Below are positions 14,926-24,412 of a DNA stretch of 35,563 nt, piece after piece. A program made the position numbers and the translations under genes. Origin of the DNA: Parcubacteria bacterium DG_74_1 (GTDB taxonomy: Bacteria > Patescibacteriota > Minisyncoccia > Minisyncoccales > DG-74-1); contig LJNE01000002.1 of assembly GCA_001303125.1 (NCBI GenBank), forward strand, positions 1-35,563, given 5' to 3'. The notes under the pieces were generated by a model. The model saw only the letters and a list, made by a program, of their open reading frames with translations, did no database searches and was not told the origin of the DNA. The stretch's first letter is position 1. Every line of letters begins with the position of its first letter.

Positions 14926-15677
14926 AATTTATTTGAGGTTTTAATATAATAAGAAGATGGTCCAGACAAGGGGCGGGGCATGGTTAAAATAAGTGTAATG
15001 AAAAGAATGATACTACAAACAATAAGAGCTATATCTCTCCCTATGGCACCTAAGTTAAAAGTATTAATAAATAAAAAATCAAAAGAGGCGACTATCAGTA
15101 TAAATAAAAAGGCGAGACCTAATCCAAGAGATTTTGCCCTGATATAAGGGTCTTCTGAATTTTTAAATTGTGAAAGAAAAATAATAGATAACGGGATAAT
15201 AGTAATGAGTGAAAGAAAAAGTCTCAGAGACGATACAAAAACGGCCATAGAACTAGATGGAAAGCCCCAATTAATAGCTCCACTCGCTTCAAGAAAGGGA
15301 TTAAATTGAAGTAAAACGACACTCAAAATTGCGGCAATTAGTCCTAAAACAAGAACCGGAATAAAACCAAGCCAAGGAGAAATCTTAGGAAATTTAAGAT
15401 AAATAATATGATAAGCTATAACGGCGAAAATAAGCGCTTGGATAAAAACGCCGACCTCTATTTTTTTTGATAAAACAGGAGGAAGAGGGCTATCGGCAAA
15501 AAATAATCCACTAATTGCGTCAATTAAAACAAACAATCCAAAAAGGCTGGCAATATAAAGCGCCTGTTTAGAAACAGCAGATTTTTCTTTCTTCCAGTAC
15601 TGAAAAAGGCGATAAATTAAAAATCCCACAGGAAAAAGTAAAACTAAATAAGCAACACCAGTAATAGAATAACTCAT
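14922..15677 (-). CDS. Multi-TM membrane protein, copy 2 of a tandem paralogous trio
   Basis: MSYSITGVAYL, FQYWKKEKSAVSK, ISPWLGFIPV, FNPFLEASGAINWG; 4 bp overlap with copy 1. Confidence 0.8.
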   Translation of the reverse strand: MSYSITGVAYLVLLFPVGFLIYRLFQYWKKEKSAVSKQALYIASLFGLFVLIDAISGLFFADSPLPPVLSKKIEVGVFIQALIFAVIAYHIIYLKFPKISPWLGFIPVLVLGLIAAILSVVLLQFNPFLEASGAINWGFPSSSMAVFVSSLRLFLSLITIIPLSIIFLSQFKNSEDPYIRAKSLGLGLAFLFILIVASFDFLFINTFNLGAIGRDIALIVCSIILFITLILTMPRPLSGPSSYYIKTSNKL

Positions 15678-20549: not shown

Positions 20550-20580
20550 GGGGTATTAGATTATATTCGGACCTGTTTTA
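20550..20580 (-). repeat. Spacer repeat core, copy 1 (upstream of ftsZ promoter)
   Basis: Minus strand TAAAACAGGTCCGAATATAATCTAATACCCC. Confidence 0.7.
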
Positions 20581-20607
20581 TGTATAAGCTAAAAAGGAAT
20601 AAAGAAA

Positions 20608-20812
20608 TTATTTTAAAAATATTAAAGCCAGGCCTCCTAAAATAAGGAAGATTCCAAGCCCCTTAAACATGATTTTTAAGTTATTTTCTGTATTCTGTAT
20701 AAAGTTTCTGGTAAAATGTCGCTGCCCCTGGCGCAATATTCTTATTATTGAAAAAGAATATCAACCCCAGACCAAGAAACAGTATACCGATGATTGTTTT
20801 TTCTATATCCAT
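20608..20812 (-). pseudogene. Small membrane protein split by a frameshift (43 aa + 20 aa ORFs)
   Basis: ORF 20681-20812 MDIEKTIIGILFLGLGLIFFFNNKNIAPGAATFYQKLYTEYRK*, then in another frame ...ENNLKIMFKGLGIFLILGGLALIFLK* ending at 20608. Confidence 0.5.
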
Positions 20813-20825
20813 TTAATTTTTTACT

Positions 20826-21140
20826 TTATAAAAACCAGAATACTAATATATTAGCTACAAGTAGGATAAATGCTGTAATTAGCATTACTTTTATGATTTT
20901 ACTTTGCCTTGGTGTAGGTCTTTCTGTTTTTCTTGCCAGCACAACCCATATCGGGATAAAAAGTATCAAAGGAAAAACAGCGCCGCTAGCTACCTCTTGA
21001 CCACTAATCGAGTGGCCCCCTTGTAACAATATAATAATTATACCACCTGCTAAAACTACCAGCAGAATAACCATTAAAGCAATGACGAATTGCCAAAAGG
21101 TTTTACTATAATTTTCTGATCTCTTTAGTTCTTGCTCCAT
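20826..21140 (-). CDS. Small membrane protein, unknown function
   Basis: 104 aa, three hydrophobic segments; ATG 8 nt downstream of TAGAAT. Confidence 0.65.
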   Translation of the reverse strand: MEQELKRSENYSKTFWQFVIALMVILLVVLAGGIIIILLQGGHSISGQEVASGAVFPLILFIPIWVVLARKTERPTPRQSKIIKVMLITAFILLVANILVFWFL

Positions 21141-21148
21141 ATTTTTTT

Positions 21149-21225
21149 ATTCTACCACAGAATTACCCAAATGGGCAGTAATGCACTAGCTGGAGGGTAT
21201 TGGACTACGTTCGAACCTGTTTAAA
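21149..21225 (-). repeat. Spacer repeat copy 2 (core + hairpin + TGTGGTAGAAT)
   Basis: Minus strand AAACAGGTTCGAACGTAGTCCAATACCCTCCAGCTAGTGCATTACTGCCCATTTGGGTAATTCTGTGGTAGAAT. Confidence 0.8.
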
Positions 21226-21237
21226 AATATTCTTATC

Positions 21238-22128
21238 TTAAATTACAAGAATTATTATGCCAATCAAAACAGCGACAACACCTAACAACTTCTGTTTGTT
21301 CAAATCAGCGCCAAGCAAAGGAACGCTTAATAAAGTAACAAATAAAATTTGAGTATTTTTAATCGATTCGTGGTATCCAGGATTGGGAGAGATTGCTATT
21401 CCCTTTATACCAAGAATATTAGCTATAAAAGAAAACGTTGCCGCTAAAAAGACTATTGGCAGAAAACTCTTTAATTTAGGTCTATCCTTTAAGTAATTTT
21501 TCATATCTTTACGGCTTAATATAGCAAAGGCTAAAAAATTAAAACCGAAAACAAAAAGCGCTATCTCTTGAGGAGAAAAGCCTATTTGACTGACTTTCTT
21601 TATTCCCAACACCGCGACAGTAAAACTTAAAGCCCCTATAATAGCTAGCACATCCCATCTTAAAAATCGTCTTTCGGTTCGTTGAATAGAAAAAATATCT
21701 TTTTTTTCTATAATAAGTGCGGCTATACCACCAATTATAAAAAACATTCCCATTAATTTTATTAAACTAAATGAACTTCCAAAAATTAAAAAAGCAATCA
21801 CGCTTATTAAAAAAACATTACTGCTTTTAATCGTTCCAGCAAAACCAGGATTTGGCGCCTTTATCACTGCTGTAAAATCTGCCCAATTACCAATAACAGC
21901 AAAAATACTAACAATTGTCATTATGATTATAAAATCCAGGAAAAATTCTGAATCCCAAATGGTATTAATCGTCCCAATATTTATAACTAAAAAACCTAAA
22001 AAAGCAAAAAGAAAAAGAAAAAGCAATATTTGTTTTGAAGAAAAACCTTTGTTTCCCAGATATCTCGTACACAAAACCATTCCCGTAAATGAAAACGCTG
22101 TTAAAATTGAGTATAGATACCAGGACAT
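21238..22128 (-). CDS. EamA/DMT-family transporter-like membrane protein
   Basis: 296 aa, about 10 TM segments, two EamA-like halves. Confidence 0.8.
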   Translation of the reverse strand: MSWYLYSILTAFSFTGMVLCTRYLGNKGFSSKQILLFLFLFAFLGFLVINIGTINTIWDSEFFLDFIIIMTIVSIFAVIGNWADFTAVIKAPNPGFAGTIKSSNVFLISVIAFLIFGSSFSLIKLMGMFFIIGGIAALIIEKKDIFSIQRTERRFLRWDVLAIIGALSFTVAVLGIKKVSQIGFSPQEIALFVFGFNFLAFAILSRKDMKNYLKDRPKLKSFLPIVFLAATFSFIANILGIKGIAISPNPGYHESIKNTQILFVTLLSVPLLGADLNKQKLLGVVAVLIGIIILVI

Positions 22129-22134
22129 ATCCTC

Positions 22135-22213
22135 ATCCTACCAAAAAACCGCCTTCTTGGGAAAACGGCTGAAGCTAGCTAGGAGTATTGGACCCTGTTC
22201 GGACCTGTTTTAT
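22135..22213 (-). repeat. Spacer repeat copy 3 (core + terminator hairpin + TTTTTTGGTAGGAT)
   Basis: Minus strand AAAACAGGTCCGAACAGGGTCCAATACTCC...GCCGTTTTCCCAAGAAGGCGGTTTTTTGGTAGGAT. Confidence 0.8.
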
Positions 22214-22265
22214 GGAGAATTATGGCTTTAGGGTGCCAGTTATAGAATAATATAAGTTCGTCGTT

Positions 22266-22336
22266 CTAAACAAAAAACCAGCTAATAAGCTGATTTCTTG
22301 TCCTAAATAAACCTCTTTCGACGCTTACTTGGGGAC
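22266..22336 (-). repeat. Repeat B copy 1 containing a rho-independent terminator
   Basis: Minus strand CCCCAAGTAAGCGTC...ACAAGAAATCAGCTTATTAGCTGGTTTTTTG; near-identical to 24421-24494. Confidence 0.7.
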
Positions 22337-22361
22337 AGGGGGGAAGAAGATTTTTAGTTCC

Positions 22362-22694
22362 TTAATAGTGTAGGTCCCCAACTCGACGTTGGGTGTTAAA
22401 ATAGATCTTGCAACTTTTCCAATCAACCTGCTCTAGGAACATAGGATTTGGTTCTCGGGAAAGCTGGCCCATACCGACGATTCCGCCTGTAATAAACCAA
22501 GATTCAGATTCAATAGAATCATCTGTAGCCGTCACCCCTTTCACTCTAATACGGAAGATATTCTTCATGACATGGGTAAATGGGGGTGGCTCAACTATGA
22601 AGTCTACTTCTCTTCCCTTAAAGAGACCCCACATTAGGTCCAATTTTGATGGTCCCTTCACGACCCTAACAGTACTCTTTAACTTCGATGTCAT
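22362..22694 (-). CDS. Orphan 110 aa protein, unknown function
   Basis: ORF with AGGAGG four nt before ATG and an upstream TTGACA/TATAAT promoter. Confidence 0.65.
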   Translation of the reverse strand: MTSKLKSTVRVVKGPSKLDLMWGLFKGREVDFIVEPPPFTHVMKNIFRIRVKGVTATDDSIESESWFITGGIVGMGQLSREPNPMFLEQVDWKSCKIYFNTQRRVGDLHY

Positions 22695-22880
22695 ACGACC
22701 TCCTGCTAATATTTGGTAGTTCAGGCACTACCTCACCGTTCGTCACCTGACGCACCTAAAGCCATACAGCTCCAGGGATTGTTTTCTTCTTCCCCCACGG
22801 TAATATTATTTTAAGGAACCGAAATAGACATAATTTCTTCTGTCCATTTCGCTTCCTTTTTTTACTCCCTCCTGGCACTT
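22695..22880 (-). ncRNA. Candidate structured 5' leader of the 110 aa ORF
   Basis: Hairpin GGAA-GC-GAAAUGGACA...UGUCUAUUUC-GG-UUCC (22815-22856); hairpin GGTAGT-GCCTGA-ACTACC (22715-22732) whose loop can pair with 22745-22750. Confidence 0.45.
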
Positions 22881-22882
22881 AT

Positions 22883-22912
22883 ATTATATAACACAAAATA
22901 TCAATTTGTCAA
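22883..22912 (-). promoter_or_regulatory. Sigma70 promoter TTGACA-18-TATAAT
   Basis: Minus strand -35 at 22907-22912, -10 at 22883-22888. Confidence 0.75.
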
Positions 22913-22917
22913 TAAGA

Positions 22918-23000
22918 CATTCTACCAAAAAACCGCCCATAAGACGATTCTTTGGCTTTTGTAAACTGGGAGTATTGGACTCTGTTCGGACCTGTTTGAT
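22918..23000 (-). repeat. Spacer repeat copy 4
   Basis: Minus strand CAAACAGGTCCGAACAGAGTCCAATACTCCCAGTTTACAAAAGCCAAAGAATCGTCTTATGGGCGGTTTTTTGGTAGAAT. Confidence 0.8.
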
Positions 23001-23078
23001 GAAGAATCATGGGGGTTAGGATGCCAGCTTTGGGACGATGTTAGAACCTGGTTGACGGAAAGCTTAACTTAATTATAC

Positions 23079-23534
23079 CTACAGCCATCTCCTTACATGA
23101 TTTTTATATTCTCCATACTCTCTTCCAAAAATCCTTTCAAGATTTCTTTCTTCAAAAGGAATAAATAATAATCCCATCAAAAATACGAAGGCGATCGGGA
23201 CGGCAAACGTAACCAAGGTTCCATGGTTAATAGCTATACCCAATAGTATTGCAGTAAATCCTAAATATTGTGGGTTTCTGCTAATACGGAAAGGACCTGA
23301 GGTTATTAGCTGGGTAGGATTTTCATATGGCTTGACTGTGGTTTTCTTTTTCTTTAATAACATATCAGCCCAGATATTTATAACTCCACCAAAAATAATA
23401 AAGGCAAAACCTAAATAGGTATATGGAGGAAAAATTATTTTCTTAATAGGGAAAATAAAATGTAATCCTATTGATAATAATAAGAGTATTATAAAATAGG
23501 TCGGCGGGAGAGGCTTCTTCTTCGGCTTTTCCAT
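23079..23534 (-). CDS. Isoprenylcysteine carboxylmethyltransferase/phospholipid methyltransferase-like membrane protein
   Basis: Several TMs, TSGPFRISRNPQYLGFTAILLGIAI...FIPFEERNLERIFGREYGEYKNHVRRWL. Confidence 0.85.
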   Translation of the reverse strand: MEKPKKKPLPPTYFIILLLLSIGLHFIFPIKKIIFPPYTYLGFAFIIFGGVINIWADMLLKKKKTTVKPYENPTQLITSGPFRISRNPQYLGFTAILLGIAINHGTLVTFAVPIAFVFLMGLLFIPFEERNLERIFGREYGEYKNHVRRWL

Positions 23535-23545
23535 ATAATATTTAT

Positions 23546-23728
23546 CTATTTTTCGAAAAAAAGAGAGATTGCGTATGCAAAGAATCCTACTCCAAAACCG
23601 ATAAATAGACCTGCGGGTATATTATTCATCGCGAAGCCGATTCCAAAACCAAGAAACAAGCCGGCAGGAATAAAAATCGCCCCCTTTTCTTTTTTCCATT
23701 TTTTCCTTTCAAATTTTTGCTCTTCCAT
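23546..23728 (-). CDS. Small Gly-rich membrane protein with internal repeat
   Basis: 60 aa; FIPAGLFLGFGIGFAMNNIPAGLFIGFGVGFF. Confidence 0.6.
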   Translation of the reverse strand: MEEQKFERKKWKKEKGAIFIPAGLFLGFGIGFAMNNIPAGLFIGFGVGFFAYAISLFFEK

Positions 23729-23763
23729 ATTTTTATAATGATTTATTTTTAGGCCTTTGTCTT

Positions 23764-23840
23764 ATTCTACCAAAAAACCGCCCAAATGGGCAGTGATGCA
23801 CTAACTGGGGGTATTGGACTATGTTCGGACCTGTTTTATA
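23764..23840 (-). repeat. Spacer repeat copy 5
   Basis: Minus strand TAAAACAGGTCCGAACATAGTCCAATACCCCCAGTTAGTGCATCACTGCCCATTTGGGCGGTTTTTTGGTAGAAT. Confidence 0.8.
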
Positions 23841-23841
23841 T

Positions 23842-23866
23842 AAAAAACACCTGTTTATTAACAGGT
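23842..23866 (-). terminator. Rho-independent terminator after the small membrane ORF
   Basis: Minus strand ACCTGTTAATAAACAGGTGTTTTTT. Confidence 0.75.
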
Positions 23867-23904
23867 AAATACAAGAAAATGGGGGTTGGGACGGGGTTGA
23901 ATAG

Positions 23905-24141
23905 TTAAGGATTCTTCCCCGTCCCGGTGTGCTTTGCTGGGAGAAACATCGATTTCCTAGTGCGATATATCCATATGAGATATCCCACCAAAATAATAGA
24001 GAAGATTAATACCCAGCCAAGGTTCCCTGCCATCGCCTCTTCTATGATTCTTCTAATAAGGAAAGTTATGGCGAAGGCTCTTATAAAGAGAATAGCGTGC
24101 TCCACTTCTGTCACCTCCTTCTCGTACCTGCCGAATTTCAC
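23905..24141 (-). CDS. Small membrane protein, unknown; likely true start GTG at 24105
   Basis: AAGGAGG lies 8 nt before the GTG at 24105; track start (GTG at 24141) has no SD. One or two hydrophobic segments. Confidence 0.55.
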   Translation of the reverse strand: MKFGRYEKEVTEVEHAILFIRAFAITFLIRRIIEEAMAGNLGWVLIFSIILVGYLIWIYRTRKSMFLPAKHTGTGKNP

Positions 24142-24303
24142 GGTCAGGGCTTATAGAGCACACGGGTTTTCAAAGGACTGGAATAGAAATAATTTTTTAT
24201 ATCCATTCCGCCCCTCTGAAATAAATAACAGGCATCCTAGGAGAGAGTTGCCTGTTGACTCAAATATCAAGATATATTCAGCTTTACTTACTCTCTCCTT
24301 TAT
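24142..24303 (-). ncRNA. Candidate structured 5' leader with H-type pseudoknot
   Basis: Minus strand GGAGAGAGT (24298-24290) complements ACTCTCTCC (24248-24240), which lies in the loop of AACAGGCA/TGCCTGTT (24256-24249 with 24234-24227). Second hairpin GGAAUGGA...UCUAUUCC at 24180-24209. Confidence 0.5.
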
Positions 24304-24309
24304 ATCTCT

Positions 24310-24337
24310 ATTATAGCATATTCATAGAATTTGTCAA
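24310..24337 (-). promoter_or_regulatory. Sigma70 promoter TTGACA-16-TATAAT
   Basis: Minus strand -35 at 24332-24337, -10 at 24310-24315. Confidence 0.75.
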
Positions 24338-24342
24338 TAGAT

Positions 24343-24412
24343 ACAAAAAACCACCTTCTTTTAAAGGCTAATAACCAACGGGGGGATTGGACTATGTTCG
24401 AACCTGTTTTTT
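24343..24412 (-). repeat. Spacer repeat copy 6
   Basis: Minus strand AAAAACAGGTTCGAACATAGTCCAATCCCCCCGTTGGTTATTAGCCTTTAAAAGAAGGTGGTTTTTTGTAT. Confidence 0.8.

Follow-up and report, generated by a model that had tools for sequence, protein, structure and literature searches.

The minus-strand segment 24298-24219 of the 35,563-nt stretch of Parcubacteria bacterium DG_74_1 analysed here (the window) belongs to a conserved family of cis-acting leaders of Patescibacteria, for which the role of an orphan transcription attenuator is moderately favoured by the comparison of sequences. That a conserved structured RNA is encoded at this place is almost certain from the alignments of its homologs, and the leader family, spread across the ultrasmall Patescibacteria, is previously uncatalogued: in the literature searched (one library only) no native regulatory RNA family of Patescibacteria is described. 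The combination of Patescibacteria with noncoding RNA, pseudoknot or riboswitch returned nothing relevant from that library; in the one riboswitch paper (PMC11665869), riboswitches figure only as possible tools. A structured leader placed before many unrelated ORFans gives a handle on accessory-gene regulation in reduced, episymbiotic bacteria and marks these ORFans as real, regulated genes, while the attenuator is testable in vitro without culturing the organism.

The leader and its gene in the window

The first-pass annotation had described an H-type pseudoknot at the 5' end of a small membrane-protein mRNA; its coordinates for all four helix strands on the minus strand were correct, both helices being read in the sequence, and the AAUAU/AUAUU small hairpin that it had placed in loop 1 is present (Table 1). 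The perfect -35 and -10 boxes at 24337-24310 would put GGAGAGAG at about +6 of the predicted transcript. In a repeat search the S2 helix lengthened to 10 bp (24299-24290 with 24248-24239). When the 72 nt were shuffled 4000 times with dinucleotides preserved, no shuffle contained two interlocked Watson-Crick helices with 8 bp or more each and at least 17 bp together, and this is the sole site of that size in the window, both strands being scanned. The leader as a whole (213 nt) is strongly folded, at z = -4.3.

Table 1. Features of the leader region and of the downstream gene (window coordinates)
Feature	Position	Strand	Basis or remark
Sigma-70 type promoter TTGACA-N16-TATAAT	24310..24337	-	12/12 consensus match
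S2 5' strand GGAGAGAGU	24290..24298	-	sequence; SD-like, ~+6, nearly invariant in family
Small loop-1 hairpin	24262..24279	-	folding of leader
S1 5' strand AACAGGCA	24249..24256	-	covariation
S2 3' strand ACUCUCUCC	24240..24248	-	sequence and alignment; within S1 loop
S1 3' strand UGCCUGUU	24227..24234	-	covariation
U-rich tract UGUUAUUUAUUU, terminator-like, after S1 GC core	24219..24230	-	U-tract statistics
Second hairpin P3	24168..24223	-	paralog at 22864-22809 (-) with 3 compensatory pairs
Hairpin GUGUGCUCUAU/GUGGAGCACGC, GUG start codon paired, SD GGAGG in loop	24095..24163	-	folding read against sequence
66-aa ORF, predicted small membrane protein, GUG start, SD AAGGAGGUG	23905..24105	-	translation; no family

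The S1 arm of the window copy consists of 8 bp closing a 14-nt loop, without extension (about -9 to -11 kcal/mol), and S2, taken as a nested hairpin, amounts to about -13 kcal/mol. Since S1 and S2 do not overlap here, a pseudoknot is possible, but the 5-nt loop (UAGGA) spanning the 9-bp S2 is tight, and fewer than 9 bp of S2 may form if the pseudoknot is a true one. The 66-aa protein contains no Pfam domain above the cut-off, and its protein homologs were sought in 246 other genomes of the order with no convincing candidate. The P3 hairpin together with the hairpin pairing the start codon suggests, as folded in the model, a further control of translation.

Distribution of the family and support for the helices

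The leader was found at 27 loci in 26 Patescibacteria genomes of at least 13 families and several orders, with the common layout of a sigma-70 promoter, GGAGAGAG, a stretch of 14-79 nt often holding a small hairpin, and the S1 hairpin carrying CUCUCUC. The loci were collected with a pattern and a model built on the window copy and L072, and then with a 13-sequence model; within the order to which the window belongs they cover ten families, to which are added three families of the class outside the order (f54, f66, f72) and three Candidatus Buchananbacteria, and one genome (G165) has two leader copies with different genes behind each. The order of the window is itself Patescibacterial, as three of the genomes match records named Candidatus Paceibacterota, Parcubacteria and Patescibacteria with full identity for 1.4 kb or more to either side, up to the ends of the loci compared. 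The strongest test was the pattern of promoter, GGAGAGAG and CTCTCTC, which, applied to 85,462 species, gave 46 matches; S1, being independent of that pattern, was then scored in each with shuffles of the downstream sequence as the reference. Only six matches were S1-positive (p<=0.007), all from Patescibacteria, and the best of the approximately 40 others reached 0.03. Phage relatives were rejected, the blastn hits to phage records and two viral-contig patterns being chance matches without S1.

The S1 helix is near certain from covariation: compensatory changes occur in 6 of 9 pairs of the 13-sequence alignment and make up 18 cells, against a mean of 6.1 cells in shuffled alignments (0/500 shuffles reach the observed number), and the covariation value of 0.281, compared with 0.152 shuffled, is lost on sliding the partner. 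The covariation check proposed at first for both helices thus held for S1, whereas in S2 no compensatory change was seen. In the same alignment S2 (GGAGAGAG/CUCUCUC) is paired in 97% of cells, nearly invariant and never covarying, an invariance that partly reflects the use of the S2 sequence in finding most members. Its support comes, therefore, from constant co-occurrence and complementarity, the S2 partners forming at least 6 contiguous bp in 26/26 loci. Because of this ascertainment, a search was made by S1 alone (GGCGACTCTCTC...TCGCC), and 5/5 of its matches have the complementary GAGAGAG upstream (p<=0.013 each). Departures within S2 occur at the ends of the helix (G-U pairs in both L217 and L220; CUCUUCC in L224). 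In L094, L217 and L220 the GGAGAGA is placed in a hairpin loop of its own and the nested S2 is weak (0.00 in L217 and L220, 0.50 in L094), so that S2 of these modelled leaders would be a kissing (loop-loop) contact. Taken together, S2 very probably pairs at some stage of folding, and the proposal that the mRNA of a small membrane-type protein begins with a structured RNA is borne out by conservation, with S1 covarying and the S2 partners present in every homolog found.

Folding of loop 1 in 26 members gave a Stouffer z of -5.0, the hairpin sequences being different and several members having no loop-1 hairpin. A consistent short ORF was not seen by eye in loop 1, and leader-peptide attenuation was rejected on this ground. 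The downstream proteins are short ORFans with membrane segments, zinc-ribbon-like pieces and others, and no Pfam domain above the cut-off was found in the ten of them that were scanned; the downstream genes having no common function, the leader is to be regarded as a portable module that is not bound to one pathway. In L086, L089, L094 and L115 a conserved second domain, GGGAGAAGGAT...ATCCTTCTCCC plus GAGGAGAGA, occurs downstream of S1, and the leaders are about 500 nt long before an ORF begins, so that the RNA there may be a larger one.

Proposed termination and antitermination, and alternative readings

In such leader attenuators as the trp leader, the T-box and the terminator-type riboswitches, an upstream strand and the terminator arm contest one segment, with a U-rich tract following. 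The leader family resembles them in its promoter-proximal position, the strand competition for one segment and the U-rich tract. In about 20 of the 27 members the S1 stem runs on through CUCUC/GAGAG, and therefore S1 and S2 compete for CUCUCUC and are mutually exclusive. The tract after S1 is enriched in U: its best 12-mer has 7.4 T, whereas the best 12-mer taken in the same way further downstream has 4.8 (Wilcoxon p 7e-9). The peak in T lies 15-30 nt past the CUCUCUC start, with background beyond it. According to the base-pair probabilities, a nascent RNA ending at CUCUCUC forms S2 with P>=0.87 in 22/27 members; once the S1 3' strand is added, S1 prevails in most of them, while S2 of the window copy remains at 1.00 in this nested model. 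Accordingly, the leader has a terminator-like hairpin with a U-tract ahead of the gene, the arm of the window copy being weak, and an exclusive alternative pairing by the upstream strand is predicted in most members, the S1 and S2 of the window copy not overlapping. Against an attenuator count the U-tracts, which are interrupted (UGUUUGUUU type) and in part belong to the stem, where they are complementary to 5' arms rich in A; the lack of compensatory change in S2, whose sequence served to find most members; the weak nested S2 of the three members with GGAGAGA in a loop; and the weak arm of the window copy. The terminator scan of the window did not list S1, whose loop is above the limit of the scan.

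The H-type pseudoknot of the first-pass annotation is compatible with the geometry of the window copy, but a permanent pseudoknot is not the general state of the family, as the S1 extension competes with S2 in most homologs. The static reading holds only in part, and the U-tract and the S1/S2 competition point to a terminator and an antiterminator. In the mechanism proposed, GGAGAGAG would pair first with CUCUCUC as the polymerase leaves the promoter, giving S2 as the antiterminator; S1, extended by CUCUC/GAGAG in most homologs, could displace S2 when its 3' strand has been made and would serve as the intrinsic terminator; whether GGAGAGAG is occupied or freed, be it by a protein, an RNA or a ribosomal subunit, would shift this balance and determine how far the downstream gene is reached by read-through. 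In the window copy the antiterminator S2 would be favoured, and S1 and S2 may coexist as an H-type pseudoknot; its arm being short and unextended, and S2 winning in the nested model, this copy should be largely read through. A wider proposal, of phylum-specific attenuator or riboswitch leaders whose invariant 5' GGAGAGAG senses some factor, perhaps an RNA-binding protein or 30S subunits that are free, and which control unrelated ORFan genes, is tentative.

The alternative that survives best, although still unlikely, is a static 5'-terminal pseudoknot or hairpin with an SD-like polypurine, shielding the mRNA without switching from such 5' exonucleases as RNase J, which is encoded in this genome. 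The polypurine/SD 5' stabilisers (STAB-SD) are known from Bacillus and mycobacteria (PMC2358910, PMC3997798), and the SD-like GGAGAGAG close to the predicted 5' end of the mRNA is shared with them; here, in contrast, a covarying hairpin always provides a complementary partner for the purine tract. This CUCUCUC partner, which would hide the tract, and the U-rich tract after S1 are both left unexplained by stabilisation, and GGAGAGAG, which begins 11-15 nt past the -10 box in many members, lies 32-53 nt from it in several.

A ligand-binding riboswitch, with the pseudoknot of S1 and S2 as the aptamer, is quite improbable, even though the H-type geometry in the window, the invariant S2 sequence and the terminator-like output would suit it. 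The preQ1-I (RF00522) and fluoride (RF01734) riboswitches likewise couple a small H-type pseudoknot to an expression platform, but here S2 is the invariant part and no conserved loop or ligand-pocket sequence is seen, the loops being unconserved in sequence and length (loop 1 of 14-79 nt), and the downstream genes have no common function, unlike those of metabolite riboswitches. Rfam 15, including preQ1, fluoride and T-box, gave only tRNAs at the gathering score for the window, for the leader region searched at E<=5 and for 12 homologous loci at E<=0.5. The leader would work like an attenuator and falls into none of the named families tested, differing from the known leader attenuators by having no leader peptide, T-box or known aptamer, by the invariant GGAGAGAG/CUCUCUC, by the unrelated ORFan genes downstream and by its occurrence, within the searched data, in Patescibacteria only.

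A DNA-level operator, in which the inverted repeats GGAGAGAG...CTCTCTCC beside the promoter are bound by a repressor, would account for the promoter-proximal position and for an S2 conserved in sequence beyond pairing alone; it is very improbable in view of the widely varying spacing (27-53 nt and more), the compensatory changes of S1, for which an operator would have no need, and the G-U pairs found instead of G-C at the edge of S2 in L217 and L220. Least credible is a trans-acting RNA in which the C/U-rich CUCUCU loop would be a seed for distant Shine-Dalgarno sequences of GGAGAG type, with the 5' GGAGAGAG as a self-block. The loop is paired into S1 in most members, and the excess of GGAGAG over the 500 nt that follow (19 sites vs 5.8 shuffled), which would speak for this reading, may come from ordinary SDs together with the second domain that a few members have.

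Paralogous leader and neighbouring elements

A second structured leader is located in the window at 22890-22680 (-) (z -4.7), in the same promoter setting, with the 5' GGAGGGAG and a long P3 hairpin that shows three compensatory pairs relative to 24168..24223; the S1/S2 module is absent from it. Most matches of the covariance model of P3 in 247 genomes of the order were AT-rich sequences hit by chance, but reading through them revealed L072 (G174), with the full S1/S2 module and a changed S1 sequence. A P3-like hairpin TTGGAGATAAAAAATTGTCTTCA was also noted at L054 468-521 (-), behind a TTGACA/TATACT promoter and ahead of an unrelated gene.

Between the small genes of the window, at 20556-24404 (-), there are seven copies of a repeat of about 34 nt, ACAGGTYCGAACATAGTCCAATACCCCC, followed in several copies by AGTTAGTGCATTACTGCCCATTTGGGCGGTTTTTTGG. 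Elsewhere in the genome it occurs on contig C10 at 7058, 7351 and 15090 (+), the copy at 15090 being weak and inside a gene, and within each of the two clusters it has a single orientation, as in a cassette array. An integron was considered for this repeat and rejected, the attC R'/R'' boxes being not evident in the copies by eye. The only tyrosine recombinase detected in the genome (Xer-like; C10 8714-9670 (-), locus L021) lies about 1.3 kb from two of the ACAGGTYCGAACATAGTCCAATACCCCC copies. A 3' UTR element, CCCCAAGTAAGYGTC...TTATTTRGGACARGAAATCAGCTTATTARCTGGTTTTTT, is repeated after two unrelated ORFs, at 24490-24420 and 22340-22260 (-), and both copies are strongly folded (z -5.0 and -4.0, respectively).
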